From Rhodococcus sp. G-MC3 (lineage in GTDB: Bacteria > Actinomycetota > Actinomycetes > Mycobacteriales > Mycobacteriaceae): a DNA stretch of 64,000 nt. Within the stretch, counting starts at the first letter, position 1; the number at the start of each line of letters is the position of its first letter. Shown piece after piece: positions 38,286-58,684 of this stretch. Location: contig NZ_JASISW010000011.1 in assembly GCF_030063335.1 (NCBI RefSeq), positions 62,001 through 126,000 on the forward strand, read 5' to 3'. Both the position numbers and the translations under genes were made by a program. The notes beneath the pieces are model-generated. The model was not told the origin of the DNA, made no database searches, and saw nothing but the letters and a program-made list of their open reading frames with translations.

Positions 38286-38684
38286 CTACGCGGGTACCTC
38301 TACGAGCGGGTACACGCCGTTCTCGTCGTGGGTTTCGTTCCCCACCACGGGAGGGTTGAAGACGCACAGCATGCGCATCTGTGTGCGTGGTTCCACAGTG
38401 TGGCGCTCGTTGCCGTTGAGCAGGTACATCGAGCCTGCACCGAGTTCGTAGGTCTCACCGGTCTCGCGATCGGTCAGTGTGCCTTCGCCCTCGATGAGCC
38501 AGACGGCTTCGATGTGGTTGGCGTAATGGAATTCGTTCACCGTTCCGGCCGCGATGGTGGTCTCGTGGAAAGAGAACCCGACCTTGTCGCCGCCGAGGAC
38601 GATTCGCTTGCTTCTCCAGTTGCCGTCTTCGCTCGAAATGTCGCGATCGGTTCCGGTGATTTCTTCGGTGGTACGTACGATCAT
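38286..38684 (-). CDS. ectC: L-ectoine synthase
   Basis: A cupin enzyme that closes N-gamma-acetyl-2,4-diaminobutyrate to the compatible solute ectoine. The 132-residue chain is the normal length and carries family motifs [43 protein letters not shown] (residues around the metal/substrate pocket) and [14 protein letters not shown]. The ATG has an AAGGGAG site. It is the last ect gene, separated from ectB by 106 bases that contain two tandem repeat blocks. No hydroxylase gene ectD is in the window, so hydroxyectoine is not predicted from this locus. Confidence 0.97.
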
Positions 38685-38790: not shown

Positions 38791-40065
38791 TCAGGAGAGC
38801 ACTTTTGCGACAGCGCCTTCGAGAATGTCCAATCCGCGGTCCAGTTCCTCGATGGTGGTGGTCAGCGGCGGTAGCAGCTTGACGACCTCATCCTTGGGAC
38901 CGGCCGTCTCGACGAGCAACCGCTCGTCGTAGGCAAGCTGGGACACCTTGGATGCCAGTTCTGGATTGTCGAACACCAGAGCTTGAACCATTCCGCGACC
39001 ACGAGTGGAGATTCCGTCGAACTCGGCGCACAACTTGATGAAGCGATCCTGGATGTGCTCGCCCTTGGCAAGTACTTCCTTTTCGAACGTGTCATCCGAC
39101 CAGTACGTGTCGATTGCAGTCTTCGACGTGACGAAGGACGGGTTGAAACCGCGGAACGTGCCGTTGTGCTCACCCGGTGCCCAGACATCGAGCTCGGGCT
39201 TGAAGAGAGTGAGCGCCATCGGCATTCCATAACCGCCGATGGACTTCGACAGAGTGACGATGTCAGGAACGATGCCGGCCTCCTCGAAGGAGAAGAACTG
39301 ACCGGTCCGACCGCAGCCCATCTGAACGTCGTCGACGATCAACAGAATGTCGCGACGCGAGCACAGTTCGGCCAAGGCGCGCAACCACTCCGGGCGTGCG
39401 ACGTTGATGCCACCCTCGCCCTGGATGGTCTCGACGATCACTGCTGCCGGACGGTTGAATCCACTGCCCGAGTCGTCGAGGACTCGCTCGAACCACTGGA
39501 AGTCTTCGGTGACGCCGCCGAAGTAATTGTCGTAGGGCATCGGCGTGGTGTGTACCAGCGGGATTCCGGCGCCAGCTCGCTTCATGGAATTGCCGGTGAC
39601 CGACAACGCGCCGAGTGTCATACCGTGGAATGCGTTGGTGAAGTTGATGATCGACTCGCGGCCGGTCACCTTACGGGCGAGCTTGAGAGCCGCCTCGACC
39701 GTGTTGGCGCCTGTGGGGCCGGGGAACTGGACCTTGTAGTCCAGTCCGCGCGGGTCGAGAATGTTCTTCTTGAACGATTCGAGGAATTCACGCTTGGCGA
39801 CGGTCGACATGTCGAGACCGTGCGTGATGCCGTCGGACTGGATGTAGTCGACGAGCGCGTCCTTGAGGATCTGGTTGTTGTGGCCGTAGTTCAGTGCGCC
39901 TGCGCCACCGAAGAAGTCGAGGTACTCGAGACCATCCTCGTCGACGAGAGTCGAGTTCTTTGCGGTCTTGAACACGGCCGGCCACTGGCGGCTGTAGCTA
40001 CGGACTGCGGACTCGACGGTCTCGAAAACGTCGAGTTTCTCTGTGGTCTGGGTCTTTTCGGTCAT
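38791..40065 (-). CDS. ectB: Diaminobutyrate-2-oxoglutarate transaminase (EctB module, possible internal start)
   Basis: It transaminates aspartate semialdehyde to 2,4-diaminobutyrate. From the ATG at 40065 the product is 424 residues, the normal EctB length, starting MTEKTQTTEKLDVFETVES. It shows the class III aminotransferase pattern: GPTGANTVEAALKLAR, DDVQMGCGRTG and the PLP lysine in TLSKSIGG. GAAAGGAACAAG precedes this ATG as a usable ribosome-binding site, so free EctB could be made. The upstream ectA frame runs into it without any stop codon; see the combined entry. Confidence 0.93.
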   Translation of the reverse strand: MTEKTQTTEKLDVFETVESAVRSYSRQWPAVFKTAKNSTLVDEDGLEYLDFFGGAGALNYGHNNQILKDALVDYIQSDGITHGLDMSTVAKREFLESFKKNILDPRGLDYKVQFPGPTGANTVEAALKLARKVTGRESIINFTNAFHGMTLGALSVTGNSMKRAGAGIPLVHTTPMPYDNYFGGVTEDFQWFERVLDDSGSGFNRPAAVIVETIQGEGGINVARPEWLRALAELCSRRDILLIVDDVQMGCGRTGQFFSFEEAGIVPDIVTLSKSIGGYGMPMALTLFKPELDVWAPGEHNGTFRGFNPSFVTSKTAIDTYWSDDTFEKEVLAKGEHIQDRFIKLCAEFDGISTRGRGMVQALVFDNPELASKVSQLAYDERLLVETAGPKDEVVKLLPPLTTTIEELDRGLDILEGAVAKVLS

Positions 40066-40614
40066 GTTCTGCTTGTTCCTTTCGTTTGTGCGCACGGGGG
40101 CATCGCCTACTGTGTAGAGCTCTTCTGCCTCGTGGCTATCAGGGAAATCATTGGGTGCGAACAGATCCGATTTTCTGATCTCGGTTCCCCGTGTTCGGGC
40201 GAGGGCCGTGAACAGCGCGATCGACGCTTCGTTGTCGGGGCTGATCGTTGTTTCGAGATGTGTGATGCCCTGAGGGGTAAGGCGGTCCAGCAGTTCGTTG
40301 AGCATCCGTCCGGCGAGGCCCTTGCCCCGCTGATCGGAGTCGACTGCGACCTGCCACACAAAAAATGTTGCGGGCGAATCTTGTCGGATGTAGCCGGTCA
40401 CGAAACCGACTGCTCGTCCGTCCACATCCGAAACCACTGAAGTGGCGGCGAAATCTCTGCACCATAGGATGTACGAGTAACTCGAATTGAGATCGAGTAC
40501 TTTTGAATCTCGAGCGATCTCCCAGAGCCGGACTCCGTCGGAAATACGTGGACCACGAAACTTCACTGCGTCCGGCGCAGTGACTGGGGTTGCTCTCAGG
40601 GATGCGGGCTTCAT
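38791..40614 (-). CDS. ectA: EctA and EctB in one continuous open frame (diaminobutyrate acetyltransferase fused to transaminase)
   Basis: The EctA part (residues 1-183) is a GNAT acetyltransferase that makes N-gamma-acetyl-2,4-diaminobutyrate: VRLWEIARDSKVLDLNSSYSY is split around the family's LNSSYxY motif, followed by CoA-binding QRGKGLAGRML. After HEAEELYTVGDAPVRTNERNKQN the frame passes directly into EctB at MTEKTQ; every codon from 40140 to 40063 is sense. In most ectoine loci ectA ends with its own stop a few bases before ectB. Here EctA cannot be released as a separate chain unless the protein is cleaved or the sequence has an error. The ATG at 40614 was preferred to one at 40653, which would add an unusual hydrophobic leader and overlaps a candidate promoter. 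The total would be 607 residues. Confidence 0.82.
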   Translation of the reverse strand: MKPASLRATPVTAPDAVKFRGPRISDGVRLWEIARDSKVLDLNSSYSYILWCRDFAATSVVSDVDGRAVGFVTGYIRQDSPATFFVWQVAVDSDQRGKGLAGRMLNELLDRLTPQGITHLETTISPDNEASIALFTALARTRGTEIRKSDLFAPNDFPDSHEAEELYTVGDAPVRTNERNKQNMTEKTQTTEKLDVFETVESAVRSYSRQWPAVFKTAKNSTLVDEDGLEYLDFFGGAGALNYGHNNQILKDALVDYIQSDGITHGLDMSTVAKREFLESFKKNILDPRGLDYKVQFPGPTGANTVEAALKLARKVTGRESIINFTNAFHGMTLGALSVTGNSMKRAGAGIPLVHTTPMPYDNYFGGVTEDFQWFERVLDDSGSGFNRPAAVIVETIQGEGGINVARPEWLRALAELCSRRDILLIVDDVQMGCGRTGQFFSFEEAGIVPDIVTLSKSIGGYGMPMALTLFKPELDVWAPGEHNGTFRGFNPSFVTSKTAIDTYWSDDTFEKEVLAKGEHIQDRFIKLCAEFDGISTRGRGMVQALVFDNPELASKVSQLAYDERLLVETAGPKDEVVKLLPPLTTTIEELDRGLDILEGAVAKVLS

Positions 40615-40654
40615 AGGAAATACAAACGTAACAAGGAGCCCTTGGGTTTTCATC

Positions 40655-45760: not shown

Positions 45761-45784
45761 TTGCAGATTGTTGACAATCTGCAA
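45761..45784. promoter_or_regulatory. GntR operator 1, upstream of the aminotransferase operon
   Basis: A perfect inverted repeat with 11-base arms TTGCAGATTGT and ACAATCTGCAA around two bases (TG). The core GATTGT-NN-ACAATC recurs upstream of the DoeA-like gene at 52315-52328. TTGACA inside the palindrome (45771-45776) is also a perfect -35 hexamer, so a bound regulator would block polymerase. The FadR/GntR core TNGT-N-ACNA pattern is compatible. It is 22 bases from the aminotransferase ATG. Confidence 0.75.
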
Positions 45785-45806
45785 ATTCTGATCCACGATT
45801 GCTGCC

Positions 45807-47072
45807 ATGACAGCGCCGACCCGCACCCACCTCAGCCCCGCACTCAAGCAAGCCACTCCGGTTGTCGTCGACTATGCGGCCGGCAGCTGGATTTATGGAA
45901 CCGACGGAAACCGATACCTCGACTTCACCACGGGGATCGGTGTCACCAGCACCGGACACTGCCATCCTCGCGTCGTCGAAGCGGCCCGCGAGCAGGTCGG
46001 CAAGATCATCCACGCCCAGTACACGACTGTCATGCACAAGCCGCTTCTCGAACTCACGGAGAAACTCGGAGACTTCCTGCCCACCGGACTCGACAGCGTC
46101 TTCTACGCCAACTCCGGATCCGAGGCCGTCGAAGCCTCCATTCGCCTGGCGCGTATGGCGACCGGTCGCCCGAACATCATCGCCTTCCACGGCGGCTTCC
46201 ACGGTCGCACCGTTGCGGCCGCGTCGTTGACGACAGCGGGAACGAAGTTTCGCTCCGGCTTCGCGCCGATCATGGGTGGTGTCCACATCGCACCGTTCCC
46301 GTATGCATTTCGGTACGGCTGGGACATGGACACCGCGATCGACTTCGCGCTGACAGAACTCGACTACCTTCTGGCCACGATCTCGAGCCCCGCCGACACA
46401 GCAGCGTTCATCATCGAACCGGTCCTCGGTGACGGCGGCTATCTCCCGACGCCCCCGGCATTCCTCGAAGGAGTGCGCGCGCGTGCCGACGAGCACGGCA
46501 TCGTACTGATCGTCGACGAGGTACAGGCAGGCGTCGGGCGCACCGGAAAGTTTTGGGGCCACGAGCATTCGAGCGCCAAGCCCGACATTGTCATCACGGC
46601 GAAAGGGCTCGCATCCGGGTTCCCGATCTCCGCGATCGCGGCCTCGACCGAACTGATGTCGAAGGCATGGCCAGGGTCGCAGGGAGGAACTTACGGCGGC
46701 AACGCCGTTGCGGCCGCCGCCGCGGTAGCCACGCTCGACGTTGTCCGGGACGAAGGTCTTGTGGAGAACGCAGCCGAACAAGGCGAGAAGTTGCTCGGCG
46801 GGCTGAAGGAACTGCAGCAGCAGTATTCGGCAATCGGTGATGCTCGCGGCCTGGGGTTGATGCAGGCACTCGAATTCGTCGACGGCGACGGCAAGCCCGA
46901 CGCTGCAGCAGCCGCCCGCGTTCAGCAGACTGCGATTTCGGAGGGCCTGCTGCTGCTCACCTGCGGTGCGCTCGGGAATGTCGTACGAGTGATCCCCGCG
47001 CTCGTCGTTACCGACGACGAGATTACCGAGGGTCTCGACGCGATCGCGCGGACACTGAAGCGAGCACTGTGA
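45807..47072 (+). CDS. Class III aminotransferase (GabT/DoeD-like)
   Basis: A 421-residue PLP enzyme that moves a terminal amino group to 2-oxoglutarate. Motifs: GTDGNRYLDFTTGIGV, NSGSEAVEASIRLAR, FHGRT, LIVDEVQAGVGRTG and the PLP lysine in ITAKGLASGFP near residue 266. GABA and L-2,4-diaminobutyrate are both possible donors. Next to an aldehyde dehydrogenase and a DoeA-like hydrolase, a DoeD role (2,4-diaminobutyrate to aspartate semialdehyde) is attractive but inferred. The ATG has no clear Shine-Dalgarno; with -35 TTGACA in the upstream palindrome the transcript may be nearly leaderless. It overlaps the next gene by four bases (GTGA). Confidence 0.88.
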   Translation: MTAPTRTHLSPALKQATPVVVDYAAGSWIYGTDGNRYLDFTTGIGVTSTGHCHPRVVEAAREQVGKIIHAQYTTVMHKPLLELTEKLGDFLPTGLDSVFYANSGSEAVEASIRLARMATGRPNIIAFHGGFHGRTVAAASLTTAGTKFRSGFAPIMGGVHIAPFPYAFRYGWDMDTAIDFALTELDYLLATISSPADTAAFIIEPVLGDGGYLPTPPAFLEGVRARADEHGIVLIVDEVQAGVGRTGKFWGHEHSSAKPDIVITAKGLASGFPISAIAASTELMSKAWPGSQGGTYGGNAVAAAAAVATLDVVRDEGLVENAAEQGEKLLGGLKELQQQYSAIGDARGLGLMQALEFVDGDGKPDAAAAARVQQTAISEGLLLLTCGALGNVVRVIPALVVTDDEITEGLDAIARTLKRAL

Positions 47073-50044
47073 CAGCAATCGACACCGCGACAGCCATTGA
47101 CACCGAGCTCGTAGATGTCGATACCCTCCTCGCCGTGTTGCTGAGGGCGGGAATCGACGTCGATTCCAGTCCGCGGCGGCTCGCCGAATACTCCTACGAC
47201 GCGTCGAACTATCGCGTGCCGCCCCTGGCCGTGGCGTTCCCGCGCTCGGCCGAGGATGTGAGAGCAGTCGTGTTGGCCTGCGCAGAGGGTGAGATTCCGG
47301 TAGTCAGCCGCGGGGGCGGAACGTCGATGGCAGGCAATGCAATCGGCGCAGGCGTCGTGCTCGACTTCTCACGGCACATGAACAACGTCGTATCGATCGA
47401 CGAAAGCGCACAATCGGCCGTCGTCGAACCGGGCATCGTCATCTCCGAACTTGCCGCTGCCGCGTCGGCAGCGACGAACGGCGCTCTGACCTACGCCCCC
47501 GACCCGTCGAGCCGGACACGGGCGACGGTCGGGGGAGCGATCGGCAACGATGCGTGCGGCAACCACTCCGTTCGATACGGCCGCACTGCGGATCACACGA
47601 TTGCGCTCGACGTGGTGACGGCCGCAGGCCATCTGCTACGGGCCACCAGGTCGGGAATCTGCGCGGTCGACCCGGAGGATGCCGCTGCAGTGGAGGCAGC
47701 GTCCCGTATCACCGCCGAACTTCAGGCGCTCGTGTCGGACAACATGGCTCACTTCCGCCTCGAGCTCGCCCGAATCGCACGCCAGGTGTCAGGCTTCCAT
47801 CTGTCGACGTTGCTGCCCGAGAACGGATTCGACGTTGCCCGTGCTTTGGTCGGCAGCGAGGGCACATGTGCCATCGTCGTCGCGGCGACCGTCGCACTCG
47901 TCCCGGTGCCGCCCGCGGCGCTGCTTCTGAGCCTCGGTTACGAAGACGTAGTGGAGGCGGCGCAGGATGTCATGGCCATCCTGGAATTCGCGCCTGCAGC
48001 CGTCGAAGGCATCGACGAGAAAATTGTCGAGACCATGCAGTTCAGGCGCGGACAGGACTCAGTCCGCGGTTTGCCGTCGGGAAATGCTTGGCTCTACGTC
48101 GATCTCGACGGTGAGAATGCTGCCGAGGTCGAGGAGAAAGCTAAACGGTTGCTGGCGCGGCTGACCGACCTCGGCAGGCTGAAGGACGGACGCATTGTCG
48201 CCGATCCTGCCGAACGCAAGTCGCTGTGGCGGGTTCGGGAGGACGGTGCAGGGCTTTCGGCACGGTTGGCCAGCGGGGCCGGGAGTGGAGCTCGCGGAAT
48301 GACCCCTGTGACCGAATCGTGGCCGGGTTGGGAAGATTCTGCGGTCGCACCGGAGAATCTTGCCGCATATCTTGCCGAGTTCCGCGATCTTCTGGCTGCT
48401 CATTCGCTGACCGGTGTGATGTACGGGCACTTCGGTGCCGGCTGTATGCACGTGCGCATCACGTTCGATCAGCGCACCGAGAGCGGGCGTGCGGCCATGG
48501 CCGGCTTCTTGCGTGCTGCGGCGGAACTCGTCGTGCGCCACGGAGGTTCGCTGTCCGGTGAGCACGGCGACGGTAGGGCACGATCCGAGCTGCTCCCGGT
48601 GATGTATTCGCAGGCGATGCTCGACGCTTTCGCGCGGTTCAAGACCATCTGGGATCCGACGTCACTGTTGAATCCCGGCAATATCACCGATCCGGTGCCG
48701 ATGATGAACGACCTTGCATTGCAGGGGATTCCGAACCGAGAATGGAAGACCACCTTCGAGCTTCATCAGATCGGAAGCAAGACCGACCTGGATCCGTTCG
48801 TCCACGCCACCCAAGCCTGCGTCGGTGTCGGTCGATGCCGATCGAGCAGTGGCGGCGTAATGTGCCCCAGTTTTCGCGCCACCGGGGACGAGAAGGATTC
48901 CACTCGTGGTCGTGCCCGAGTGCTGCAGGAGATGGTTCGCACCTCGAAGACTGTCACCGACGGCTGGGCATCGACCTCGGTCAAGGAATCTCTGGATCTG
49001 TGCCTGTCCTGCAAAGCTTGCTCGTCCGACTGCCCGGTCGGTGTGGACATGGCCACCTACAAGGCGGAATTCCTCGATCACCACTACGCGGGCAAGCTTC
49101 GGCCGATGGCTCATTACTCGCTGGGGTGGTTGCCCCGCTGGCTGAAGTTGACGTCGCGGATCGCGCCGCTGCTGAACGCGGCGCTCACACCCAAGACCGG
49201 GAAGTTGGCTGCGAAACTGGGTGGACTGACGACGAAGAGGTCGTTGCCGCGTTTCGCCTCCCGCAAGGAACTACGGTCTCAGATCACCTCATCGGTGGTC
49301 GGCGGTGATGTCGTTCTGTTCGTCGATTCGTTCACACAGGGATTTCGGCCCGAGATCGTCGGCGCGGCCACCCGTGTGCTCGCCGATGCTGGACGGACGG
49401 CCGAATGCCGAACCGATGTCTGTTGCGGACTCACCTGGATCTCGACGGGCCAGTTGGCAACGGCCCGAAAGATTCTGGCGCGGACGGCCGATGCGCTCGA
49501 CGATGGCACCGGCCGACCGATAGTTGTCACCGAGCCGAGTTGTGCCGCTGCTCTGAAGAAGGATCTACCGGAACTGGTGAACACCGACGCAGCGCGTCGC
49601 GTGGCTGCCCGAGTCCAGAGTTTCGCCGGCGCAGTCATCGAACAGGCAGCGGGAGGGTGGACGCCGTCGGCGCATGTTCCGAACGAGGTGACCGTGCAGA
49701 CTCACTGCCACGAGTACGCAGTCTTCGGGGAAGCTACTCAGCGCAAAGCTCTTGCAGCGGCGGGAATCACCTCGGTCGACGAGGCGACGGGCTGCTGCGG
49801 GGTGGCGGGCAACTTCGGATTCGAGCCCGACCATTACGAGCTCAGTATGAAGGTGGCCGAGCAGGCGCTTGCTCCTGCGATCCGACGAGCCGGTGACCGA
49901 CCGATTCTCACCGATGGCTTCAGTTGCCACATGCAGGTACGAGAACTCACGGGAGATCACAGCGCCGGAGCCTCGACACATTTGGCGCTCATTCTCGATC
50001 CTGGGCCGAATGGCCCCATCGACAGAAAGGATGAACACTCGTGA
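47069..50044 (+). CDS. FAD-linked oxidase with Fe-S and CCG domains (D-2-hydroxyacid / D-2-hydroxyglutarate dehydrogenase type)
   Basis: A 991-residue respiratory-type flavoenzyme of the YdiJ/D-lactate dehydrogenase architecture. An FAD_binding_4 domain (about 50-200, with SRGGGTSMAGNAIG and GGAIGNDACGNHS) is followed by the FAD-oxidase C domain (about 270-550, ending GSLSGEHGDGRARSELL), a ferredoxin-like region with CVGVGRC and CLSCKACSSDCPVG (about 583-658), and CCG cysteine domains (CCGLTW near 786, GCCGVAGNFG near 909). It oxidises a D-2-hydroxyacid and passes electrons to the respiratory chain in relatives. GTG 47069 overlaps the aminotransferase stop. A second, NAD-type D-2-hydroxyacid dehydrogenase closes the neighbouring operon, so a 2-oxo/2-hydroxyacid intermediate is likely. 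Confidence 0.9.
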   Translation: MTAIDTATAIDTELVDVDTLLAVLLRAGIDVDSSPRRLAEYSYDASNYRVPPLAVAFPRSAEDVRAVVLACAEGEIPVVSRGGGTSMAGNAIGAGVVLDFSRHMNNVVSIDESAQSAVVEPGIVISELAAAASAATNGALTYAPDPSSRTRATVGGAIGNDACGNHSVRYGRTADHTIALDVVTAAGHLLRATRSGICAVDPEDAAAVEAASRITAELQALVSDNMAHFRLELARIARQVSGFHLSTLLPENGFDVARALVGSEGTCAIVVAATVALVPVPPAALLLSLGYEDVVEAAQDVMAILEFAPAAVEGIDEKIVETMQFRRGQDSVRGLPSGNAWLYVDLDGENAAEVEEKAKRLLARLTDLGRLKDGRIVADPAERKSLWRVREDGAGLSARLASGAGSGARGMTPVTESWPGWEDSAVAPENLAAYLAEFRDLLAAHSLTGVMYGHFGAGCMHVRITFDQRTESGRAAMAGFLRAAAELVVRHGGSLSGEHGDGRARSELLPVMYSQAMLDAFARFKTIWDPTSLLNPGNITDPVPMMNDLALQGIPNREWKTTFELHQIGSKTDLDPFVHATQACVGVGRCRSSSGGVMCPSFRATGDEKDSTRGRARVLQEMVRTSKTVTDGWASTSVKESLDLCLSCKACSSDCPVGVDMATYKAEFLDHHYAGKLRPMAHYSLGWLPRWLKLTSRIAPLLNAALTPKTGKLAAKLGGLTTKRSLPRFASRKELRSQITSSVVGGDVVLFVDSFTQGFRPEIVGAATRVLADAGRTAECRTDVCCGLTWISTGQLATARKILARTADALDDGTGRPIVVTEPSCAAALKKDLPELVNTDAARRVAARVQSFAGAVIEQAAGGWTPSAHVPNEVTVQTHCHEYAVFGEATQRKALAAAGITSVDEATGCCGVAGNFGFEPDHYELSMKVAEQALAPAIRRAGDRPILTDGFSCHMQVRELTGDHSAGASTHLALILDPGPNGPIDRKDEHS

Positions 50045-51504
50045 CCACATCTCTGACGCGTTCCGACATTACCTCTCCGACCGGTCTTTTCATCGGTGGA
50101 AGCTGGCGAGAAGGGAACAGTAGGAAGAAGTTCGACGTCGTGGACCCCGCCACCGGTGACGTCATTGCTGAAGTCTCCGACGGCGACGTCACCGATGCCG
50201 AGGCCGCGATGGCCGCCGCCGACGGAGCGCAGGCGTCGTGGGCTGCGACGTCGCCACGTGAGCGCAGTGTGATCCTGCGTCGCGCATTCGAGTTGATCAT
50301 CGAACGCACCGATGAGCTCGCCGCAATCATCACCGCGGAAATGGGGAAGCCCTTGGCCGATGCACGCGGCGAGGTCGCCTACGGCGCGGAGTTCTTTCGC
50401 TGGTTCTCCGAAGAAGCAGTACGTATCTCGGGTGATCACACTCTGACAGGCGACGGCAAGAATCGGATCATCGTCACGCGCGCACCCGTCGGGCCGTGCA
50501 TTCTGGTGACGCCCTGGAACTTTCCGCTCGCGATGGGTACCCGAAAGATCGGACCTGCTCTGGCCGCAGGCTGCACGGTGGTGTTCAAGCCTGCCGAGCA
50601 GACGCCGTTGACGGCACTCGCCCTCGCCGGCATTCTTGTCGAAGCAGGCGTGCCCGACGGAGTAGTCAACGTAGTTCCCACCACCGATGCTGCCGGAGTC
50701 GTCGGGTCGTGGATGGCAAGCGGGGTGGCCCGCAAGATCAGCTTCACCGGATCGACCGCCGTCGGCAAGATCCTCCTCGCGCAGGCGGCGCCGACGGTGA
50801 TGCGCACGTCGATGGAGCTCGGTGGGAACGCGCCGTTCATCGTTGCCGAGGGCGCCGATGTCGATCGTGCCGTCGACGGAGCCATGGTCGCGAAGATGCG
50901 GAACATGGGCGAGGCATGTACTGCGGCCAACAGATTCTTTGTGCAGCGTTCTCTCGCAGCCGAATTCGCCGACAAGCTCGGTGCCCGAATGGGTGCGATG
51001 AAGGTCGGTTCGGGTAGCGCCGACGGCGTCGAGGTCGGTCCACTGATCGATCAGGATGGACGTGCCAAAGTTCAGCACCTCGTCGATGATGCTCTCGGTC
51101 GCGGTGCACGAGCGGTCGTCGGCGGAAAGGAGGACCCGGGTCCGGGATACTTCTACCCGCCGACGGTGCTGGACTCGGTCGACTCGGCGTCGGAGCTGAT
51201 GTCCACGGAGATCTTCGGCCCGGTCGCTGCTGTCGTTCCGTACGACACCGAGGACGAGGTGATCGCCCTCGCCAACGACACCGAATGGGGCCTCGTCGGG
51301 TACGTCTACACCCAGGACATCGACCGGGCGTTGCGGATGGGGGAGCGTCTGGAAGTGGGGATGGTCGGGCTCAACACCGGCCTCGTCTCCAATCCGGCCG
51401 CGCCGTTCGGCGGCGTCAAGCAGTCGGGGCTCGGCCGCGAGGGCGGCAAGGTCGGTATCGACGAGTTCCTGGAGTACAAATATTTCGCTATCCCCAGGTC
51501 CTAG
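50041..51504 (+). CDS. NAD(P)-dependent aldehyde dehydrogenase (succinate-semialdehyde dehydrogenase-like)
   Basis: A 487-residue ALDH, closest in style to GabD. Motifs: TPWNFPLAMGTRKIGPALAA, FTGSTAVGK, catalytic glutamate in MELGGNAPF and catalytic cysteine in MGEACTAANR. In the proposed pathway it would oxidise aspartate semialdehyde (DoeC role) or succinate semialdehyde, the product of the preceding aminotransferase. GTG 50041 overlaps the previous stop by four bases. The family alone cannot fix the substrate. Confidence 0.9.
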   Translation: MTTSLTRSDITSPTGLFIGGSWREGNSRKKFDVVDPATGDVIAEVSDGDVTDAEAAMAAADGAQASWAATSPRERSVILRRAFELIIERTDELAAIITAEMGKPLADARGEVAYGAEFFRWFSEEAVRISGDHTLTGDGKNRIIVTRAPVGPCILVTPWNFPLAMGTRKIGPALAAGCTVVFKPAEQTPLTALALAGILVEAGVPDGVVNVVPTTDAAGVVGSWMASGVARKISFTGSTAVGKILLAQAAPTVMRTSMELGGNAPFIVAEGADVDRAVDGAMVAKMRNMGEACTAANRFFVQRSLAAEFADKLGARMGAMKVGSGSADGVEVGPLIDQDGRAKVQHLVDDALGRGARAVVGGKEDPGPGYFYPPTVLDSVDSASELMSTEIFGPVAAVVPYDTEDEVIALANDTEWGLVGYVYTQDIDRALRMGERLEVGMVGLNTGLVSNPAAPFGGVKQSGLGREGGKVGIDEFLEYKYFAIPRS

Positions 51505-51518
51505 CAGGAGGTCCAACA

Positions 51519-52256
51519 GTGGTGACAAGAAACGCAGGCGCCGCTTCGCGGAGGTTGACGCCCATCAACGCCAGGAACACGTCGATGGTGATCGCCGATC
51601 AAATCCGCGATCGCATCATCGACGGGTCCTATGCGCCGGGGGAACAGGTCAACGAGGCGAACGTTGCCGCCGAACTCGAAATCTCTCGCGGACCGGTTCG
51701 AGAAGCCCTGCAGCGCCTCAACCAAGAGGGGCTGCTGGTGAGTTATCGAAATCGCGGTGTCTTCGTGGTCGAGCTCTGCAGCGGCGATGTGGCCGAGATC
51801 TACGAGGCGCGCGCGGCGATCGAAGTGGGTGCCGCCTGGACGCTGGTGCACGGTGAGAAATCGGTGCTCACGGCAACCGCTGCCGCGCTGTCGGCGGTGG
51901 TCGATCAGATGCAGCCGTTCATCGACCGAGCGGATTGGCTGGGTCTCGCCGAGCGTGACCTGGCCTTCCACACGGCTCTGGTGGCGGCCACCTCGAACAG
52001 TCGGATGTCTCGGATGTACGCGACCCTGGCTGCCGAGGCTCGTATCTGCATGGCGAACCTCGAAACTGCCTACTACCGCCCAGAGGCGCTGGTGGAAGAG
52101 CATCAACTGCTGGTCGACCTGCTTCTGGGCGGGGACTGGTCGGCTCTCGAAGCGGGCGTGCACGAGCATATGGACACTGCCATTCACGATCTGACGCGTG
52201 CGATGCACGACCAAGCGGCCGAGGATGCGGATTCCGTTCTGGCCAAACCCAGTTAG
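51519..52256 (+). CDS. GntR-family regulator, FadR subfamily (FCD domain)
   Basis: A 245-residue repressor-type protein. The winged helix covers about residues 18-80 (NTSMVIADQIRDRIIDGSYAPGE, then EISRGPVREALQRLNQEGLL split at the recognition helix), and the C-terminal FCD effector domain carries the metal/ligand pattern ERDLAFHTALVAATSN and LVEEHQLLVDLLL. AGGAGG stands seven bases before GTG 51519 (a second GTG follows at once). It is the last gene of the aminotransferase operon. The palindrome GATTGT-NN-ACAATC in front of both this operon and the next one is the probable binding site, so it would control both and itself. Confidence 0.9.
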   Translation: MVTRNAGAASRRLTPINARNTSMVIADQIRDRIIDGSYAPGEQVNEANVAAELEISRGPVREALQRLNQEGLLVSYRNRGVFVVELCSGDVAEIYEARAAIEVGAAWTLVHGEKSVLTATAAALSAVVDQMQPFIDRADWLGLAERDLAFHTALVAATSNSRMSRMYATLAAEARICMANLETAYYRPEALVEEHQLLVDLLLGGDWSALEAGVHEHMDTAIHDLTRAMHDQAAEDADSVLAKPS

Positions 52257-52314
52257 CCGCAACGAAGAAGTAACACGAGTTGCCTTGCGGCGACGACCCT
52301 TCTGCGCTTAGCCT

Positions 52315-52333
52315 GATTGTCAACAATCTGCAA
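52315..52333. promoter_or_regulatory. GntR operator 2, upstream of the DoeA-like operon
   Basis: GATTGT-CA-ACAATC (52315-52328) followed by TGCAA (to 52333). Its right half is identical to operator 1 over eleven bases; the outer left arm is degenerate. The core is the exact reverse complement of operator 1's core. It is 53 bases before the GTG at 52386. Confidence 0.7.
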
Positions 52334-52385
52334 AACGCACATGGGTGGTCGAAGGCCACCCGCGATGCCTCGAAAGGGGGTACCA

Positions 52386-53666
52386 GTGAACGAGAACGAG
52401 TACTACCCCGCCGAACTCACCAGCGCGGTCGGCGCGGATCATGCGCCAGGGCTTGCCGAATACGTCGACCTACCGAACAGCACACCGATCACGTTCACCG
52501 ACGAGGAGTACTCCACCCGTCTCGCGGCAGTGCGGGCTCGGATGGCGTCGCAGAATCTGCACGCTCTCATCGTGACCGATCCGTCGAACCTCTACTACCT
52601 GCTCGGCTACAACGCGCTCTCGTTCTACACCCCGCAGATGCTGTACGTGCCGCTCGAAGGCGAACTCTACTTCTTCGCCCGTGAGATGGATGCCAACGGA
52701 GCGTTCAGGACGTCCTGGCTGCCACAGGACCAGACATTCGGCTATCCCGAGACATTCGTGCAGCGCAAGGACACCCACCCGTTCGTCTGGGTGGCGCAGA
52801 AGCTCCGCGAACTGGGTCTGGTGAACAACTTCTCGCACGGCCAGGTCGGTCTGGAGATGGATTCCTACTACTTCAGCCCGAAAGCATTCGAAGCGCTCGT
52901 GAAGTTGTTGCCGGAGTACCGGTTCACCGATTCTTACGAGCTGATCAACTGGGCGCGCGTGATCAAGTCTCCGGCCGAGATCGATCTGATGCGCGGTGCC
53001 GCGCAGGTGTGCGAATCGGCGATGGCGGCGGCCTACGAGGCCATCGTCGTCGGCGCTCGCCAGTGCGATGCCGCGGCAGCGATCCTGAATGCTCAGGTGC
53101 GGGGCACGGCGGACTTCGGTGGCGATCACCCGGCGATCGTGCCGATGCTGCCCACCGGTGCCGGCGCCGACACCCCGCACCTGACCTGGTCGGACCAGGT
53201 ATTCATTGCGGGGGAGACCACGGTCGTGGAGTTGGCAGGAGTGTTTCGCCGCTACCACGTACCGATGGCGAGGACTGTTGTCCTCGGGCGACCGAGTGCT
53301 CGTCTGGATTACCTCGCGCAATCCACCGGCGAAGCATTGAACGAGGTGCTGGCAACTGTGCGTCCCGGCGTCACGACCAACGAACTCGCGCAGGTCTGGA
53401 ACGTCAGCCTCGCGAAACACGGCCTGCACAAGCCGTCGCGCATCGGATACTCCATCGGCATCGCGTATGCACCGGACTGGGGCGAGCGAACCGTGAGCAT
53501 CAGAACCGACGACGACACCGTGCTCGCGGAGAACATGACATTCCACATCATCGGTGGAATGTGGATGGACGACTACGGATACGAAGTCTCCGAAGCCGTG
53601 CGCGTGACCGCCGACGGCCTGGAAACTTTCACCGCGTACCCGCGGCAACTACTGACGAAGGAGTGA
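52386..53666 (+). CDS. doeA: M24-family hydrolase resembling ectoine hydrolase DoeA/EutD
   Basis: DoeA opens the ectoine ring to N-acetyl-2,4-diaminobutyrate. The 426-residue protein has the creatinase-N plus pita-bread layout. Several blocks agree with my memory of Halomonas DoeA: VTDPSN (63-68), REMDANGA (99-106), GLEMDSYYFSP (155-165) and GIAYAPDWGERT (358-369). Most M24 metal ligands are absent: the usual DxG...SD pair reads ELAG...VP (282-293), the GHG histidine is Y355 in GYSIG, and the glutamate of IEPG is replaced in HIIGG; only the last glutamate (E403) remains. This argues against an Xaa-Pro peptidase and fits non-metal M24 members. GTG 52386 follows AAAGGGGG. Confidence 0.72.
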   Translation: MNENEYYPAELTSAVGADHAPGLAEYVDLPNSTPITFTDEEYSTRLAAVRARMASQNLHALIVTDPSNLYYLLGYNALSFYTPQMLYVPLEGELYFFAREMDANGAFRTSWLPQDQTFGYPETFVQRKDTHPFVWVAQKLRELGLVNNFSHGQVGLEMDSYYFSPKAFEALVKLLPEYRFTDSYELINWARVIKSPAEIDLMRGAAQVCESAMAAAYEAIVVGARQCDAAAAILNAQVRGTADFGGDHPAIVPMLPTGAGADTPHLTWSDQVFIAGETTVVELAGVFRRYHVPMARTVVLGRPSARLDYLAQSTGEALNEVLATVRPGVTTNELAQVWNVSLAKHGLHKPSRIGYSIGIAYAPDWGERTVSIRTDDDTVLAENMTFHIIGGMWMDDYGYEVSEAVRVTADGLETFTAYPRQLLTKE

Positions 53667-53669
53667 GAG

Positions 53670-54899
53670 ATGATCGCCACCACCATTCCGTGGGCCTTGC
53701 GCACCGACAAGCTGGTGGGATCGGTGATCGACTCGTCGACATCGCTTCTCGCCGCGCAGAAACACGACATCGTCCGTTTTGCGATGGGATCGCCTGCCGC
53801 GGAGACTGTTCCAGCAGCTGTATTCTCCGACATCGCATCGGCCGTCATGACGAGCGACGCAATGGACTACGCTGCCACCGAAGGTGACCCCGGCCTGCTC
53901 GACGCGCTCCTCGGCTACCTGGACTCCGTCGGCGAACCGTCATCGGCAGATCGCATCGTGATCACCTCTGGCGGCATGCAGGGACTCGATCTGGCGTGCA
54001 AACTGTTCATCGATCCGGGTGACCTGGTCATCGTCGAAAGTCCCACGTACACCAACGGAACCGCGACCGTTCTCAGCTATGGCGGTGATGTGCTCGAAGC
54101 GCCGATGGACAGCGATGGACTCATCGTCGAAGCGTTCCCCGAACTGGTCGAGCAGGCGGGCCGTCTGCCGAAGATGATCTACGTGATTCCCAATTTCCAG
54201 AACCCCTCCGGCACCACCATGTCGCTGGCACGCCGAACCCTGCTCCTCGAACTCGCACACAAGTGGGGTGCGGTGATTCTCGACGACGACCCGTACGGCC
54301 TCCTTCGTTTCGAGGGCAAGCACATTCCGAGTTTCAACGCACTGAGTCCTGGCGATCCGCTGGTGTTCTCGGTGCGAACGTTCTCGAAGATGATCGCGCC
54401 TGGACTTCGTGTGGGCTGGGTCGATGCAGCGCCCGAGGCGCGGCAGTTGTTGATCAACGCCAAGCAGGCGATGGACACATGCACCAATCTTCCTGCTCAG
54501 CGGATGATCGCCGAGTTCATCCGCCGCGGTCACCTGCACACGCATCTCCGCTCTCTCGGCACGGTTTATCGGCCGCGCAAGATAGCTATGCAGCGCAGCC
54601 TGGACAGGTACTTCGGTGATCGTATTGCCACCACGGATCCCGAAGGCGGCTTCTTTCTGTGGGCAACCTTGCGCGGCGCTGCCGCGGCAGTCTCGACGCA
54701 GGATTTGTTCGAAGTCGCTCTCGCAGAGGGGGTTGCCTATATTCCGGGGCCCGCGCTGTCGGTCGGCGGCAAGTTCCACGATTCGCTGCGTTTATGCTTC
54801 GCGTCGTCGACTCCCGAGCGGATCGACGAGGGTGTGAAAAGGCTTGCGGCGGCGGTCGACAGGTCGATGGCAATGCTCGCGAGCGATCCGACTCGATGA
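53670..54899 (+). CDS. Class I/II PLP-dependent aminotransferase (MocR-/2-aminoadipate-type catalytic domain)
   Basis: A 409-residue fold-type I aminotransferase without a DNA-binding domain. Motifs: ITSGGMQGLDLACKLF, YVIPNFQNPSGTTMS, LDDDPYGLLRFEG and the PLP lysine in RTFSKMIAPGLRVGW near 237. GAAGGAG precedes the ATG, three bases after the DoeA-like gene. It ends with an ATGA overlap into the M20 gene. Substrate unknown; an alpha-transamination of an amino acid released in this pathway would give a 2-oxoacid usable by the two D-2-hydroxyacid dehydrogenases. Confidence 0.88.
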   Translation: MIATTIPWALRTDKLVGSVIDSSTSLLAAQKHDIVRFAMGSPAAETVPAAVFSDIASAVMTSDAMDYAATEGDPGLLDALLGYLDSVGEPSSADRIVITSGGMQGLDLACKLFIDPGDLVIVESPTYTNGTATVLSYGGDVLEAPMDSDGLIVEAFPELVEQAGRLPKMIYVIPNFQNPSGTTMSLARRTLLLELAHKWGAVILDDDPYGLLRFEGKHIPSFNALSPGDPLVFSVRTFSKMIAPGLRVGWVDAAPEARQLLINAKQAMDTCTNLPAQRMIAEFIRRGHLHTHLRSLGTVYRPRKIAMQRSLDRYFGDRIATTDPEGGFFLWATLRGAAAAVSTQDLFEVALAEGVAYIPGPALSVGGKFHDSLRLCFASSTPERIDEGVKRLAAAVDRSMAMLASDPTR

Positions 54900-56140
54900 C
54901 CGAATTGGATCTGCTGCTGCAGGGCGCCATCGACTCCGAAGAGATTCTTGCGCTGGCATCGGCGTTGATCGATGCTGGCGGTGAAAACCCAGGAAGCACC
55001 GAGGGTGGTGTCGTGGAGGTGCTCGCCGAACACTGCAGGGCACTCGGTTTCGTTATCGAGATCGACGAAGTGGTTCCTGGCAGACCCAATATCGTTGTCT
55101 CGGTCGGTGGCTCGGATCAGCCGGGTGTCCTGTTCATCGGCCACTCGGATGTGGTTCCCGCAGGCGGCGGGTGGACGACGGATCCCTTCGGCGCGGTGGT
55201 GAAAGACGGCCGTCTGTTCGGGCGTGGATCGTGCGACATGAAAGGTGGCTTGGCCGCCGTCGTGATCGCGATGGCTGCTTTGAAGCGCTGTGGCGCACTC
55301 GGTTCGGCGCCCGTATCGCTGGCGTGCCTCGTCGACGAGGAGGACACCGGTCTGGGCATCCGCTCGTTCGTCGGACAATCGCCGTCCGTCAGGCAATCGC
55401 CGTCCGTCAGACAAACGAATCGACGCGAGTACTCGCACTGCATCGTCGCGGAACCAACCGATCTGGTGACCATCACCGGATGCCGGGGTGCAGCAAACCT
55501 CGACATCACGGTGACCGGACGCTCAGCGCATGCAGGCAAGCCGGCGAACGGCCGAAACGCGGTATCCGCGGCAGCACGCATCGTGGTGTTGATCGATTCG
55601 ATGGCCGAGGCGCTGCGATCGGAACCCCATCCCATTCTCGGTGCTGCGACCTGGAACGTCGGCACCATCGTCGGAGGCACCGGAACCTCGATGGTCGCCG
55701 ACAGCTGCGTTCTGACCGTGGATCGACGGTTGTTGCCCGGTGAGGACGCCCACGACATCGCATCCAAGCTGCGACAAGAGATTGAATCCGCGGGAATATC
55801 GGGGGACGGAATCGAGGTGTCGGTGACAGTGTCGATGGAGATGCCGGGCTTCCTGACCAGCGAGGACGCTGGAATTTCGACGTCAGCGGTGCGCGCCGTT
55901 GCGGACGTCGTCGGCCATCGGGGCACCGGTGTGTGGACCGCGTCCTGTGACGGTGGCTTCATTGCGCGCGACATGGGTATTCCCACCGTCGTACTGGGTC
56001 CTGGAGAAATCGAACTGCAAGCTCATCAGCCCGACGAATCGGTTTCGGTCCAGCAATTGTGCGACAGCGCAAGGGTGTACGCGCTGTTGGCATCGAAAAT
56101 CACTGCGCGACCAGGTGTTATGACGAACTCCCTGGGGTAG
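54896..56140 (+). CDS. M20-family amidohydrolase (ArgE/DapE type), candidate N-acetyl-diaminobutyrate deacetylase
   Basis: A 414-residue zinc hydrolase. The site is complete: H83 and D85 in GHSDVVP, D114 in GRGSCDMKGG, catalytic E148 and ligand E149 in VDEEDTGLG, E186 in AEPTD and the C-terminal histidine in ELQAHQPDESV. The dimerisation domain (GRSAHAGKP) is present. In known ectoine catabolism the deacetylase DoeB belongs to the AstE/aspartoacylase family, which is missing here, so this enzyme may fill that step; that is inference. A six-residue duplication (QSPSVR twice) inserts after residue 160. The ATG overlaps the aminotransferase stop. Confidence 0.88.
   Translation: MTELDLLLQGAIDSEEILALASALIDAGGENPGSTEGGVVEVLAEHCRALGFVIEIDEVVPGRPNIVVSVGGSDQPGVLFIGHSDVVPAGGGWTTDPFGAVVKDGRLFGRGSCDMKGGLAAVVIAMAALKRCGALGSAPVSLACLVDEEDTGLGIRSFVGQSPSVRQSPSVRQTNRREYSHCIVAEPTDLVTITGCRGAANLDITVTGRSAHAGKPANGRNAVSAAARIVVLIDSMAEALRSEPHPILGAATWNVGTIVGGTGTSMVADSCVLTVDRRLLPGEDAHDIASKLRQEIESAGISGDGIEVSVTVSMEMPGFLTSEDAGISTSAVRAVADVVGHRGTGVWTASCDGGFIARDMGIPTVVLGPGEIELQAHQPDESVSVQQLCDSARVYALLASKITARPGVMTNSLG
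55376..55415 (+). repeat. 18-bp in-frame duplication in the M20 gene
   Basis: CAATCGCCGTCCGTCAGG is followed by the same 18-mer with one change and then by CAAA, so the peptide QSPSVR is doubled. It lies in a surface segment between the catalytic glutamates and AEPTD. Confidence 0.85.
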
Positions 56141-56234
56141 GTCGAAAACCGATGTACTTGCTTGCGTAAAGTGGAACGCTGCGAAGTACCAGCCCGACGC
56201 TCGACGTTATTGACAAAGCGAGAGGTATTGGACC

Positions 56235-57719
56235 TTGACACAGTCATCAAGCAGTAGGTCTGCAAGTAGTGGGTCAACCAGTAGTGGGTCTACCAGAAGT
56301 ATCGGCGCAGATGGTTCCGCGACCGGTTATCCGCCGGATCGCAGGGAGCTCAGTCCCGAAGAGAACAAGGTTTTGCGCAGAGCTATCGGTGGTTCCGCCC
56401 TCGGTAACGCCGTCGAGTGGTTCGATTACGCGGTGTACGGCTATCTGGCCGTGTACATCGCAGCAAACTTTTTCCCATCGGAGGACGGCGGCGCGAGTCT
56501 GTTGTCGACGTTCGCGGTGCTCGCAGCGTCGTTCATCATTCGTCCGATCGGCGGCATCGTGCTCGGCCCACTCGGCGACCGCATCGGTCGACAAAAGGTG
56601 CTGGTCCTGACGGTGACCATGATGACGCTGGCGACGGCGGCGATCGGAATTCTGCCGACCTTCGACACCGTCGGAATCTTGGCCCCGATTCTTTTGCTCA
56701 TGTGCCGTTTGGTGCAGGGCTTCTCCACCGGCGGTGAATACGGCGGTGCGGCAGTGTTCATGGCCGAGTACGCGCCGGATCGGCGTCGTGGTTTCTTCGG
56801 TTCTTTCCTCGAATTCGGCACACTTGCAGGCACTGTCGTAGGCGCGACATTGTGCACGCTGCTGAACCTCGGTCTGGGCGACGACACCATGGAGGCATGG
56901 GGCTGGAGAATCCCGTTCCTGCTGACGTTGCCACTTGGACTCGTTGCACTTTGGCTACGTACGCGCCTCGAAGATTCTCCCGTGTTCGCCGAGGCCAAAG
57001 CCGAAGGCGAGACCGTGTCCGAGGGTGCGCAGGGTGGCGCGATCGCCTCGCTCAAGACCACCATGACGTACTGGCAGCGCATTCTCATTCTGATGGGCTT
57101 CGTGCTGCTCCTCAATATCGCCTACTACACCGTGCTGACGTTCTTACCGTCGTACCTGAGTGACACGTTGGGCCACAGCACTACCCAGTCCAACTTCACA
57201 CTCGTCGTGATCATGCTGATCATGATGGCAATCATCAATCCGATCGGTTCGTTGTCGGATCGAATCGGCCGCAAGCCGTTGTTGCTTGCTGCCTGCGTCG
57301 GCTACTTCGTGTTCAGTGTTCCGCTGTTCCTGCTGATCATCAACACCGGACTTGTCGGCCAGACGGTCGGGCTGCTCGGCCTGGGAATTCTGCTCGTCAT
57401 CATGTGCTCGTGTGTGTCATCGACACTTCCCGCGCTGTTCCCGACGCAGGTTCGCTACGGCGCCTTCGCAATCGGATACAACGTGTCGACGTCGCTGTTC
57501 GGAGGTACCGCTCCGCTGATCCTGACGTTCCTGATCGACAAGACCGGGTCGAACCTGATCCCGGGTTGGTACATGATGCTGGCCGCCGCGATCGCATTCG
57601 TCCCGATCCTGCTGATGCCTGAAACTGCAGGTCGCTCACTTCGCGGAACTCAGTGCCCAGGCGACAACGATGACGAGGTTGCTGCCTCGGGTGTCGAGCT
57701 CGTGGGATACAAGTCCTAG
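56235..57719 (+). CDS. MFS transporter, MHS family, ProP-like (probable osmolyte/ectoine uptake)
   Basis: A 494-residue proton symporter with 12 predicted helices. Motifs: GNAVEWFDYAVYGYLAVYIA, GPLGDRIGRQKVLV, STGGEYGGAAVFMAEYAPDRRRGF and SLSDRIGRKPLLL, all typical of ProP and its relatives, which import proline, betaine and ectoine. Location after a DoeA-like hydrolase makes ectoine or a related solute likely. The TTG start at 56235 follows AGAGG; no in-frame ATG exists before the first helix. The N-terminal 20 residues are a Ser/Gly repeat. It lacks the long C-terminal coiled coil of E. coli ProP, which is involved in osmosensing there. Confidence 0.87.
   Translation: MTQSSSSRSASSGSTSSGSTRSIGADGSATGYPPDRRELSPEENKVLRRAIGGSALGNAVEWFDYAVYGYLAVYIAANFFPSEDGGASLLSTFAVLAASFIIRPIGGIVLGPLGDRIGRQKVLVLTVTMMTLATAAIGILPTFDTVGILAPILLLMCRLVQGFSTGGEYGGAAVFMAEYAPDRRRGFFGSFLEFGTLAGTVVGATLCTLLNLGLGDDTMEAWGWRIPFLLTLPLGLVALWLRTRLEDSPVFAEAKAEGETVSEGAQGGAIASLKTTMTYWQRILILMGFVLLLNIAYYTVLTFLPSYLSDTLGHSTTQSNFTLVVIMLIMMAIINPIGSLSDRIGRKPLLLAACVGYFVFSVPLFLLIINTGLVGQTVGLLGLGILLVIMCSCVSSTLPALFPTQVRYGAFAIGYNVSTSLFGGTAPLILTFLIDKTGSNLIPGWYMMLAAAIAFVPILLMPETAGRSLRGTQCPGDNDDEVAASGVELVGYKS
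56250..56294 (+). repeat. 15-bp in-frame tandem repeat at the N-terminus of the ProP-like gene
   Basis: Three 15-base units (AGCAGTAGGTCTGCA, AGTAGTGGGTCAACC, AGTAGTGGGTCTACC) encode SSRSA-SSGST-SSGST before the first transmembrane helix. Confidence 0.85.
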
Positions 57720-58684
57720 TGACGGGGAGGCCGGTGGTCGTCGTCTTGCACGCCGACCACCTCCCCGAGGGGCTCGACTCGGTGTCGGAAGTGGCCGATA
57801 TCCGTTATGCCACAGCCGATACTCTCGGCGACGCTGTTCCCGGTGCCGACGTGCTGCTGCTGTGGGACTTCTTCTCGCCAGCAGTGAAGAAAGTGTGGCA
57901 TCTCTGCGATTCGTTGAAATGGATTCACATCGCCGCAGCGGGAGTCGATTCTCTCATGTTCGACGATCTCGTCGAATCCGATGTGGTAGTGACGAATTCG
58001 CGAGGTGTCTTCGATCGCCCGATCGCCGAATTCGTTCTCGGCCAGATTCTCGCCTTCGCAAAGGGTTCGTCGAATTCAGAAGCGCTGCAACGGCAGAAGA
58101 TTTGGAAGCACCGGGAATCGGAGCGCATCGACACCGCTCGCGCGATGATCGTCGGAACCGGCGCGATCGGACGCGAAACAGCGAGATTGCTGAGCGCTGT
58201 AGGAATGTCGGTGTCCGGCGTCGGTCGCACGGCGCGCACCGGCGACGTCGATTTCGGAGAGGTCTATGCGAGCGCGGATCTGTCATCGGTGATCGAAGGC
58301 GTCGATTATCTGGTCCTGCTTGCGCCGCTGACCGAAGCCACGCGAGGGCTTGTCGACGCGCAGGTGCTCGAAGCGGTAACTCCTGGTATCCGAGTGATCA
58401 ACGTGGGCCGGGGAGAACTTCTCGAGATCGACGCACTTCTCGCAGGGCTTCGCTCCGGACGGGTCGTGGGAGCGGCGTTGGACGTGTTCGATGCGGAACC
58501 GTTGCCACCGGACAGTGAGCTGTGGACGACGGAGAATGTGGTGATCACCCCGCACATGAGCGGCGATGCAGTCGGCTGGCGTGGTCGCCTCGCGGAGCTG
58601 TTCGTCGCCAATTTCCACCGGTACAACGGCGCCGAGACCCTTGCCAACGTCGTCGACAAGAGGCTCGGATTCGTCTCGAACTGA
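57719..58684 (+). CDS. NAD-dependent D-2-hydroxyacid dehydrogenase
   Basis: A 321-residue enzyme that interconverts 2-oxoacids and D-2-hydroxyacids. Rossmann motif VGTGAIGRETARLL near 141-154, then NVGRGELLE with the substrate arginine, DVFDAEPLP with the glutamate region and the catalytic histidine in ITPHMSGD near 279. It belongs to the GhrA/SerA-like group; the substrate is unknown. GTG 57719 overlaps the transporter stop by one base, so it is the fifth gene of the DoeA-like operon. Together with the FAD/Fe-S D-2-hydroxyacid dehydrogenase of the sister operon it suggests a hydroxyacid intermediate or overflow product. Confidence 0.9.
   Translation: MTGRPVVVVLHADHLPEGLDSVSEVADIRYATADTLGDAVPGADVLLLWDFFSPAVKKVWHLCDSLKWIHIAAAGVDSLMFDDLVESDVVVTNSRGVFDRPIAEFVLGQILAFAKGSSNSEALQRQKIWKHRESERIDTARAMIVGTGAIGRETARLLSAVGMSVSGVGRTARTGDVDFGEVYASADLSSVIEGVDYLVLLAPLTEATRGLVDAQVLEAVTPGIRVINVGRGELLEIDALLAGLRSGRVVGAALDVFDAEPLPPDSELWTTENVVITPHMSGDAVGWRGRLAELFVANFHRYNGAETLANVVDKRLGFVSN

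Follow-up and report, generated by a model that had tools for sequence, protein, structure and literature searches.

The one ectoine degradation route that has been worked out comes from Proteobacteria and ends at aspartate. Its clusters encode EutD, EutE, Ssd and Atf (DoeABCD), as in Leisingera (L137; L handles denote fetched loci) and S. meliloti (L132), and their regulator is the MocR-type EnuR. Boas Lichty et al. 2026 describe Bacillota clusters that lack EutE and contain an amidohydrolase gene, and name candidates among Actinomycetes and Archaea (PMC13188858; this and the other papers are cited from excerpts), while Tsukamurella, which belongs to the same order of Actinomycetes as our strain, has a doeBDAC cluster (PMC7192451). 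A DoeB of M20 type, DoeB2, already has an NCBIfam model (NF038260). Here we compare with these systems a nine-gene cluster of Rhodococcus sp. G-MC3 that probably breaks down ectoine, to judge from the families of its products. It occupies 45807-58684 of a stretch of 64,000 nucleotides, the window (C5:62001-126000; contig NZ_JASISW010000011.1), in a 5.6 Mb genome with a completeness rating of 100%.

All nine genes are open frames on the forward strand. In order, they encode a GABA (gamma-aminobutyrate)-transaminase-like class III aminotransferase (AT3, 45807..47072), a YdiJ-like FAD/4Fe-4S D-2-hydroxyacid dehydrogenase (47069..50044), a succinate-semialdehyde-dehydrogenase-like aldehyde dehydrogenase (ALDH, 50041..51504), a GntR/FCD regulator (51519..52256, its start chosen inside the open frame), an EutD/DoeA-like M24 hydrolase (EutD, 52386..53666), a class I aminotransferase of LysN/KAT II type (AT1, 53670..54899), an M20 deacylase of ArgE/DapE type (54896..56140), a ProP-like MFS transporter (56235..57719) and an NAD(P)-type D-2-hydroxyacid dehydrogenase (D2HADH, 57719..58684). 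For EutD we kept the start of the original prediction, which was made from the sequence alone, and which a purine-rich stretch precedes; searches used start 52365. Frames at about the predicted positions and of the predicted superfamilies were all present, including the transporter (PRK10642, 433 bits, under the cut-off of 544), the aldehyde dehydrogenase and a GntR regulator, which carries an FCD domain. Two D-2-hydroxyacid dehydrogenases had also been foreseen; two are there, but they are of different kinds, the FAD/4Fe-4S YdiJ type (47069) and the NAD(P) type (57719).

With DoeABCD the window shares an EutD-like M24 protein, a succinate-semialdehyde-dehydrogenase-like enzyme and an aminotransferase. 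In contrast to DoeABCD, it has no EutE, has a GabT-like enzyme instead of the Atf type and a GntR/FCD regulator instead of EnuR, and adds AT1, D2HADH and the YdiJ-like enzyme. The EutE-less clusters (PMC13188858; Priestia L134) have in common with it EutD, an M20-type amidohydrolase, an aldehyde dehydrogenase and a ProP or other transporter. Unlike the window, they hold EutB/EutC, of which no match was found at the window locus, a cystathionine-gamma-synthase-like or other aminotransferase and a homoserine-dehydrogenase-like gene, and their M20 proteins are weakly similar to that of the window or under the reporting limit. Replacement of EutE by an M20 enzyme would thus be of a known kind and not a new idea; the newer part is the linkage of AT1 to EutD, a stand-alone module, a shared palindrome and the GabT-like AT3. 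We tentatively read the locus as an ectoine-opening module (EutD, AT1, M20 and transporter) with its own operator copy inside an older AT3-YdiJ-ALDH-GntR-D2HADH operon, in which case degradation would pass through (R)-4-amino-2-hydroxybutyrate and D-malate.

First, the putative older operon exists on its own. AT3-YdiJ-ALDH-GntR-D2HADH occur in the same order and direction in four EutD-negative relatives (L170, L171, L173, L174), with no EutD, AT1 or M20 match within 20 kb; in the window, EutD-AT1-M20-MFS lies between GntR and D2HADH. Partial forms of the module were found in L172, L176, L177, L178 and L180. At other loci without EutD, pieces of this segment are present: L167 misses EutD and AT1 and keeps M20 and the remaining genes, L181 has an AT1 remnant adjoining M20, L162 has D2HADH and YdiJ-AT1-M20, M20 stands alone in L163, L164, L168, L169 and L179, and it is accompanied by the MFS gene in L165 and L166. 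On the Arthrobacter plasmids L161 and L186, AT3 and ALDH occur with an enzyme of the tartrate dehydrogenase family (TIGR02089, 516 bits, over the cut-off of 470, in L161; by annotation in L186), a family that includes D-malate dehydrogenases, and in L161 this AT3/ALDH cluster directly adjoins a 51% identical D2HADH. Further genes in the clusters of L161 (26715-33933) and L186 encode FAD oxidases, an amino-acid ABC transporter and a haloacid-dehalogenase-like protein.

Second, the two parts share a palindrome. By pattern search, operator-like sites were located at 45767..45778 (ATTGTTGACAAT, before AT3) and 52316..52327 (ATTGTCAACAAT, before EutD), both followed by CTGCAAA, and they support the earlier division of the genes into two operons. 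Across the window and 81 loci, 1,675,366 bases in all, we counted 132 exact copies of the palindrome ATTGTNNACAAT, where base composition predicts 0.12, whereas the commonest of 159 other palindromes of like composition occurred 12 times in the same 82 sources. Allowing one mismatch added just three sites, and a looser pattern with two mismatches was unremarkable in the window (8 matches, shuffle mean 4.1). When each site was assigned to the nearest gene, from -60 to 260 bases from its extrapolated start, 131 of the 132 lay within this distance of a regulon gene (AT3 65, EutD 23, amidase 18, second GntR 11, EutA-like 6, D2HADH 5, ALDH 2 and YdiJ 1), and the remaining one lies 31 bases before EutD in L150. 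The surplus is partly due to common descent, because the loci were chosen for carrying these genes and include near copies (L027 and L109). In 17 spread loci we counted 29 sites, and none in L105 or L107; among the 24 named loci of the own genus, the EutD site is missing in L025 and L027. A site precedes AT3 in the Arthrobacter loci L161 and L186, and in Rhodococcus L184 and L185 it stands before a frame, by eye glutamate-dehydrogenase-like, that itself precedes AT3; Shinella L187 is without the palindrome. We infer that the GntR protein binds the palindrome, which could serve as a marker for locating the regulon in other genomes. The excerpt of a paper on MocR regulons (PMC5320631) does not cover the regulator of this cluster. 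The palindrome also accompanies an amidase gene, whose product exceeds the PRK06169 cut-off, and one or two genes for EutA-like proteins (84-106 bits, cut-off 318) in other genera (at L170:10528-14072, at L075:15933-18184 and in relatives).

Third, no other gene is linked to EutD as tightly as AT1. We counted both and two partner genes in genomes of the family at thresholds of our choosing (EutD E<=1e-60, AT1 E<=1e-90, M20 E<=1e-70, D2HADH E<=1e-55); the draws for AT1, M20 and D2HADH had the same size and handles as that for EutD, and the handle lists were compared by eye. EutD was present in 59 of 301 genomes, from 6 of 31 genera. AT1 was found in 60 genomes, that is in 59/59 EutD-positive and 1/242 EutD-negative ones (G028). 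The co-occurrence of M20 with EutD, which the original prediction had suggested looking for and which we followed within the family, gave 75 genomes, 59 EutD-positive and 16 EutD-negative; M20 is as close a neighbour of EutD as AT1, yet it is distributed differently. D2HADH was found in 164 genomes, the 59 and 105 of the 242 EutD-negative ones. These counts are not independent because the genomes are related, the genes are neighbours and the thresholds were set by us. In 58 fetched EutD neighbourhoods (24 from the own genus, 34 from others; L007 cut by the contig end), AT1 was present in 58, M20 in 57, D2HADH in 55, AT3 in 55 (one truncated, L092), ALDH in 54, MFS in 53 and YdiJ in 52. The M20 gene of L107 lies elsewhere in the genome, and in L090, L093 and L106 a distance of about 12.6-18 kb separates D2HADH from EutD within one contig. 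In L150, which belongs to a different order of this class, D2HADH-EutD-AT1-M20 are contiguous, with AT3 about 1 kb further. A search of plasmids with AT1 returned 29 records, and the 12 listed were 32-37% identical and without useful context.

As the original prediction had stated, there is no AstE-type DoeB. TIGR02994, which gave 620 bits on a real EutE, had 0 matches in the own genome, so that no true doeB was found elsewhere either, and 0 in the 59 EutD-positive family genomes; we therefore dropped the idea of a hidden DoeB. The predicted placing of M20 in one operon with doeA also agrees with the layout: its frame overlaps the end of AT1, which directly follows EutD. M20 contains GHSDV (82), CDMKGG (113), DEEDTG (147), EPTD (186) and QAHQPD (375), motifs which presumably carry the zinc and catalytic residues, in agreement with the ArgE alignment, and it scores 224.8 bits on the ArgE/DapE deacylase model TIGR01910 (cut-off 217.6). 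DoeB2 and the Tsukamurella doeBDAC cluster likewise place an M20 superfamily deacetylase in ectoine catabolism. The window protein matches ArgE/DapE models instead, and we rejected it as a DoeB2 member since NF038260 (cut-off 550) is absent from its best 25 of 56 models, the 25th of which scores 76.8 bits. It is plausible from the context that M20 replaces DoeB. It may have a further role beside the ectoine pathway, because it is kept in the 16 EutD-negative family genomes and in loci without EutD.

AT3 had been called DoeD-like; it is 29.6% identical to the canonical Atf (of L137), a member of a different subfamily (PRK07482, 842 bits), and 41.5-44.2% identical to annotated GabT proteins, so we rejected it as a DoeD. 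Its best PDB match is GabT (299 bits), its score on the GABA aminotransferase model TIGR00700 is 374 bits (under the cut-off of 506.65), and models of acetylornithine aminotransferase match it as well (PRK05769, 431 bits, under the cut-off of 552). Where E. coli GabT has GEGG (E211 in the alignment), AT3 has GDGG. ALDH scores 571 bits on the succinate-semialdehyde dehydrogenase model TIGR01780 (cut-off 646) and is 45% identical to the canonical Ssd, both matching such models under cut-off. The nearest solved relatives of AT1 are archaeal multi-substrate and alpha-aminoadipate aminotransferases, enzymes that act on alpha-amino groups. The YdiJ-like protein has FAD, CCG and 4Fe-4S domains (NF049975, 432 bits, cut-off 1350). 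D-2-hydroxyglutarate dehydrogenases accept D-malate (PMC10034468, PMC7801405). Among named proteins, AT3, ALDH and the FAD/FeS enzyme are thus most closely related to GabT and GabD of the GABA shunt and to YdiJ; in contrast to these, the window enzymes, all under equivalog cut-offs, would act on 2-hydroxy GABA, 2-hydroxy succinate semialdehyde and D-malate.

In the D-malate route, each reaction of which we infer from enzyme family, EutD would convert ectoine to N-acetyl-diaminobutyrate and M20 would remove the acetate. AT1 would take the alpha-amino group of diaminobutyrate to give 4-amino-2-oxobutanoate, and D2HADH would reduce this 2-oxo acid to (R)-4-amino-2-hydroxybutyrate (2-hydroxy-GABA). 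AT3 and ALDH, working as in the GABA shunt, would yield 2-hydroxy-4-oxobutanoate and then D-malate, which the YdiJ-like enzyme would oxidize to oxaloacetate. M20 may act before AT1 if EutD yields the alpha-acetyl product, which would require it first, and after D2HADH if the product is the gamma-acetyl one. This route would account for all genes of the cluster; we judge its probability to be slightly below even.

A rival reading built on the original prediction follows the established pathway: EutD would release alpha-acetyl-diaminobutyrate, M20 would deacetylate it in place of DoeB, AT3 would form aspartate semialdehyde, ALDH aspartate and AT1 oxaloacetate, with the hydroxyacid enzymes serving something else in the regulon. 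The identity of ALDH to Ssd, the suitability of an ArgE-like M20 for an alpha-acetyl substrate and the M20-type enzyme and aldehyde dehydrogenase of the EutE-less Bacillota clusters (PMC13188858; L134) speak for it. However, AT3 is GabT-like, and this route gives no task to D2HADH and YdiJ, even though in EutD-negative relatives both are in one operon with AT3 and have the same operator. An aspartate end that leaves AT1 and the hydroxyacid enzymes to a side branch has less in its favour, because AT1 is the tightest EutD partner, AT3 is no DoeD and the hydroxyacid enzymes belong to an EutD-free module sharing the operator; we regard the rival route as rather unlikely. Very improbable is a late deacetylation, in which AT3 would act on alpha-acetyl-diaminobutyrate, ALDH would form N-acetylaspartate and M20 would free aspartate: the acetylornithine aminotransferase scores of AT3 and the ArgE-like M20 would fit, but AT1, D2HADH and YdiJ are left without a task, and we found no direct support.

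Several observations weigh against the D-malate route. D2HADH alone says little, because it is in 105/242 EutD-negative genomes. The YdiJ-like gene is absent from 3 of 10 EutD-positive genomes tested, two others having just a 48% copy elsewhere, and its locus copy is missing in L013, L027, L092, L107 and L150. L105 and L107 are without AT3 and ALDH at the locus and without the operator, their genomes holding AT3 relatives merely 37-42% identical; L107 keeps D2HADH, EutD and AT1. Elsewhere in the phylum, ten distantly related EutD loci (38-42%) gave 0 D2HADH or AT1 matches and an M20 match in 9/10. R. jostii L184 has AT3, ALDH and YdiJ, with no D2HADH within 29 kb. In favour of the route, the second listed of the 100 records that a plasmid search with D2HADH alone matched is a Mesorhizobium region whose doeA lies 3.4 kb away; this cluster, however, looks decayed, with Ssd in two pieces. 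Moreover, the alpha-acetyl isomer, on which AT1 could act after deacetylation only, makes up most or part of the EutD product in published work: H. elongata DoeA gives alpha- and gamma-acetyl isomers 2:1 (PMC5924519), and the R. pomeroyi and Methylomicrobium enzymes release mainly the alpha-acetyl isomer (PMC8739950, PMC7192451). Finally, the haloarchaeal Natrarchaeobius locus L040 has no D2HADH match.

The substrate is probably ectoine or hydroxyectoine, because the nearest solved relative of the M24 protein is DoeA, ectC and ectA-ectB lie upstream and the operon has a ProP-like transporter. In line with its earlier naming as DoeA-like, EutD finds its best NCBIfam model in TIGR02993 (ectoine_eutD) and its best PDB match in ectoine hydrolase DoeA (6twj/6twk). 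Its 424 bits on TIGR02993 are under the cut-off of 613, with DoeA_2 next at 234 bits. It is 42-43% identical to EutD of the canonical clusters (L137, L132), and the closest EutD proteins on contigs of named genomes come from 24 Rhodococcus/Rhodococcoides loci, 23 at 84-93% and L027 at 73%. A second EutD in the own genome was dismissed, the other M24 matches being merely 25-39% identical. The ect genes (ectC, 38286-38684; ectA-ectB, 38791-40653; both on the reverse strand) lie 12-14 kb upstream of EutD, and ect genes were near EutD in 5/5 own-genus loci fetched that far (L110-L114). These genes, the DoeA relationship and the transporter make it quite unlikely that the M24 protein opens a different cyclic compound and that the cluster is not for ectoine. 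This other reading draws on the score under the family cut-off, on the EutA-like proteins and amidase that share the operator in other genera, and on relatives beside 5-oxoprolinase-like genes that are equally conserved: of 85 core columns common to EutD of ectoine gene clusters, the window protein keeps 77 and these relatives 76-77, so this comparison failed to separate them from ectoine hydrolases. The relatives are 47-49% identical M24 proteins of Thalassobaculum and its relatives (L031, L036, L045), and the 5-oxoprolinase-like gene sets they adjoin were recognized by eye.

If true, the D-malate route would explain ectoine use by these Gram-positive bacteria without EutE and Atf, and several enzymes named by family alone would gain a task. 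Somewhat more tentatively than for the locus itself, we suggest that Actinomycetota could have a second ectoine route, through alpha-deamination of diaminobutyrate, (R)-4-amino-2-hydroxybutyrate and D-malate, and that ectoine makers would never form aspartate semialdehyde while degrading it. As aspartate semialdehyde is an ectoine precursor, breakdown would stay apart from synthesis in cells doing both. Among the matches listed in a literature search that covered few subscription papers and is not proof of absence, none described an ectoine route via a hydroxy acid or D-malate. A known ectoine cluster contains hdhD, a hydroxyacid dehydrogenase gene whose role the excerpt leaves undefined (PMC5924519). 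In Haladaptatus (L135) and Halobaculum (L146), genes for an M24 protein, a D-2-hydroxyacid dehydrogenase (33% identical to the window D2HADH in L135), an amidohydrolase, a threonine-dehydratase-like protein and a class III aminotransferase stand together, and haloarchaea may have arrived independently at the same pairing of EutD and a D-2-hydroxyacid dehydrogenase.

Two minor observations concern neighbouring themes. On a plasmid of Roseateles sp. XES5 (L136:5391-11359), EutA, M24 and M20 genes have an annotated L-2-hydroxyglutarate oxidase in their vicinity; doeB is absent from this stretch, which makes it a further EutE-less cluster that includes a hydroxyacid enzyme. In the window, ectA and ectB form a single 620-residue frame, which exceeds the cut-offs for both EctA (180 bits) and EctB (642 bits) and may encode a fused protein for ectoine synthesis; such a single frame is also present in L110, L111, L113 and L114, L112 being not resolved.

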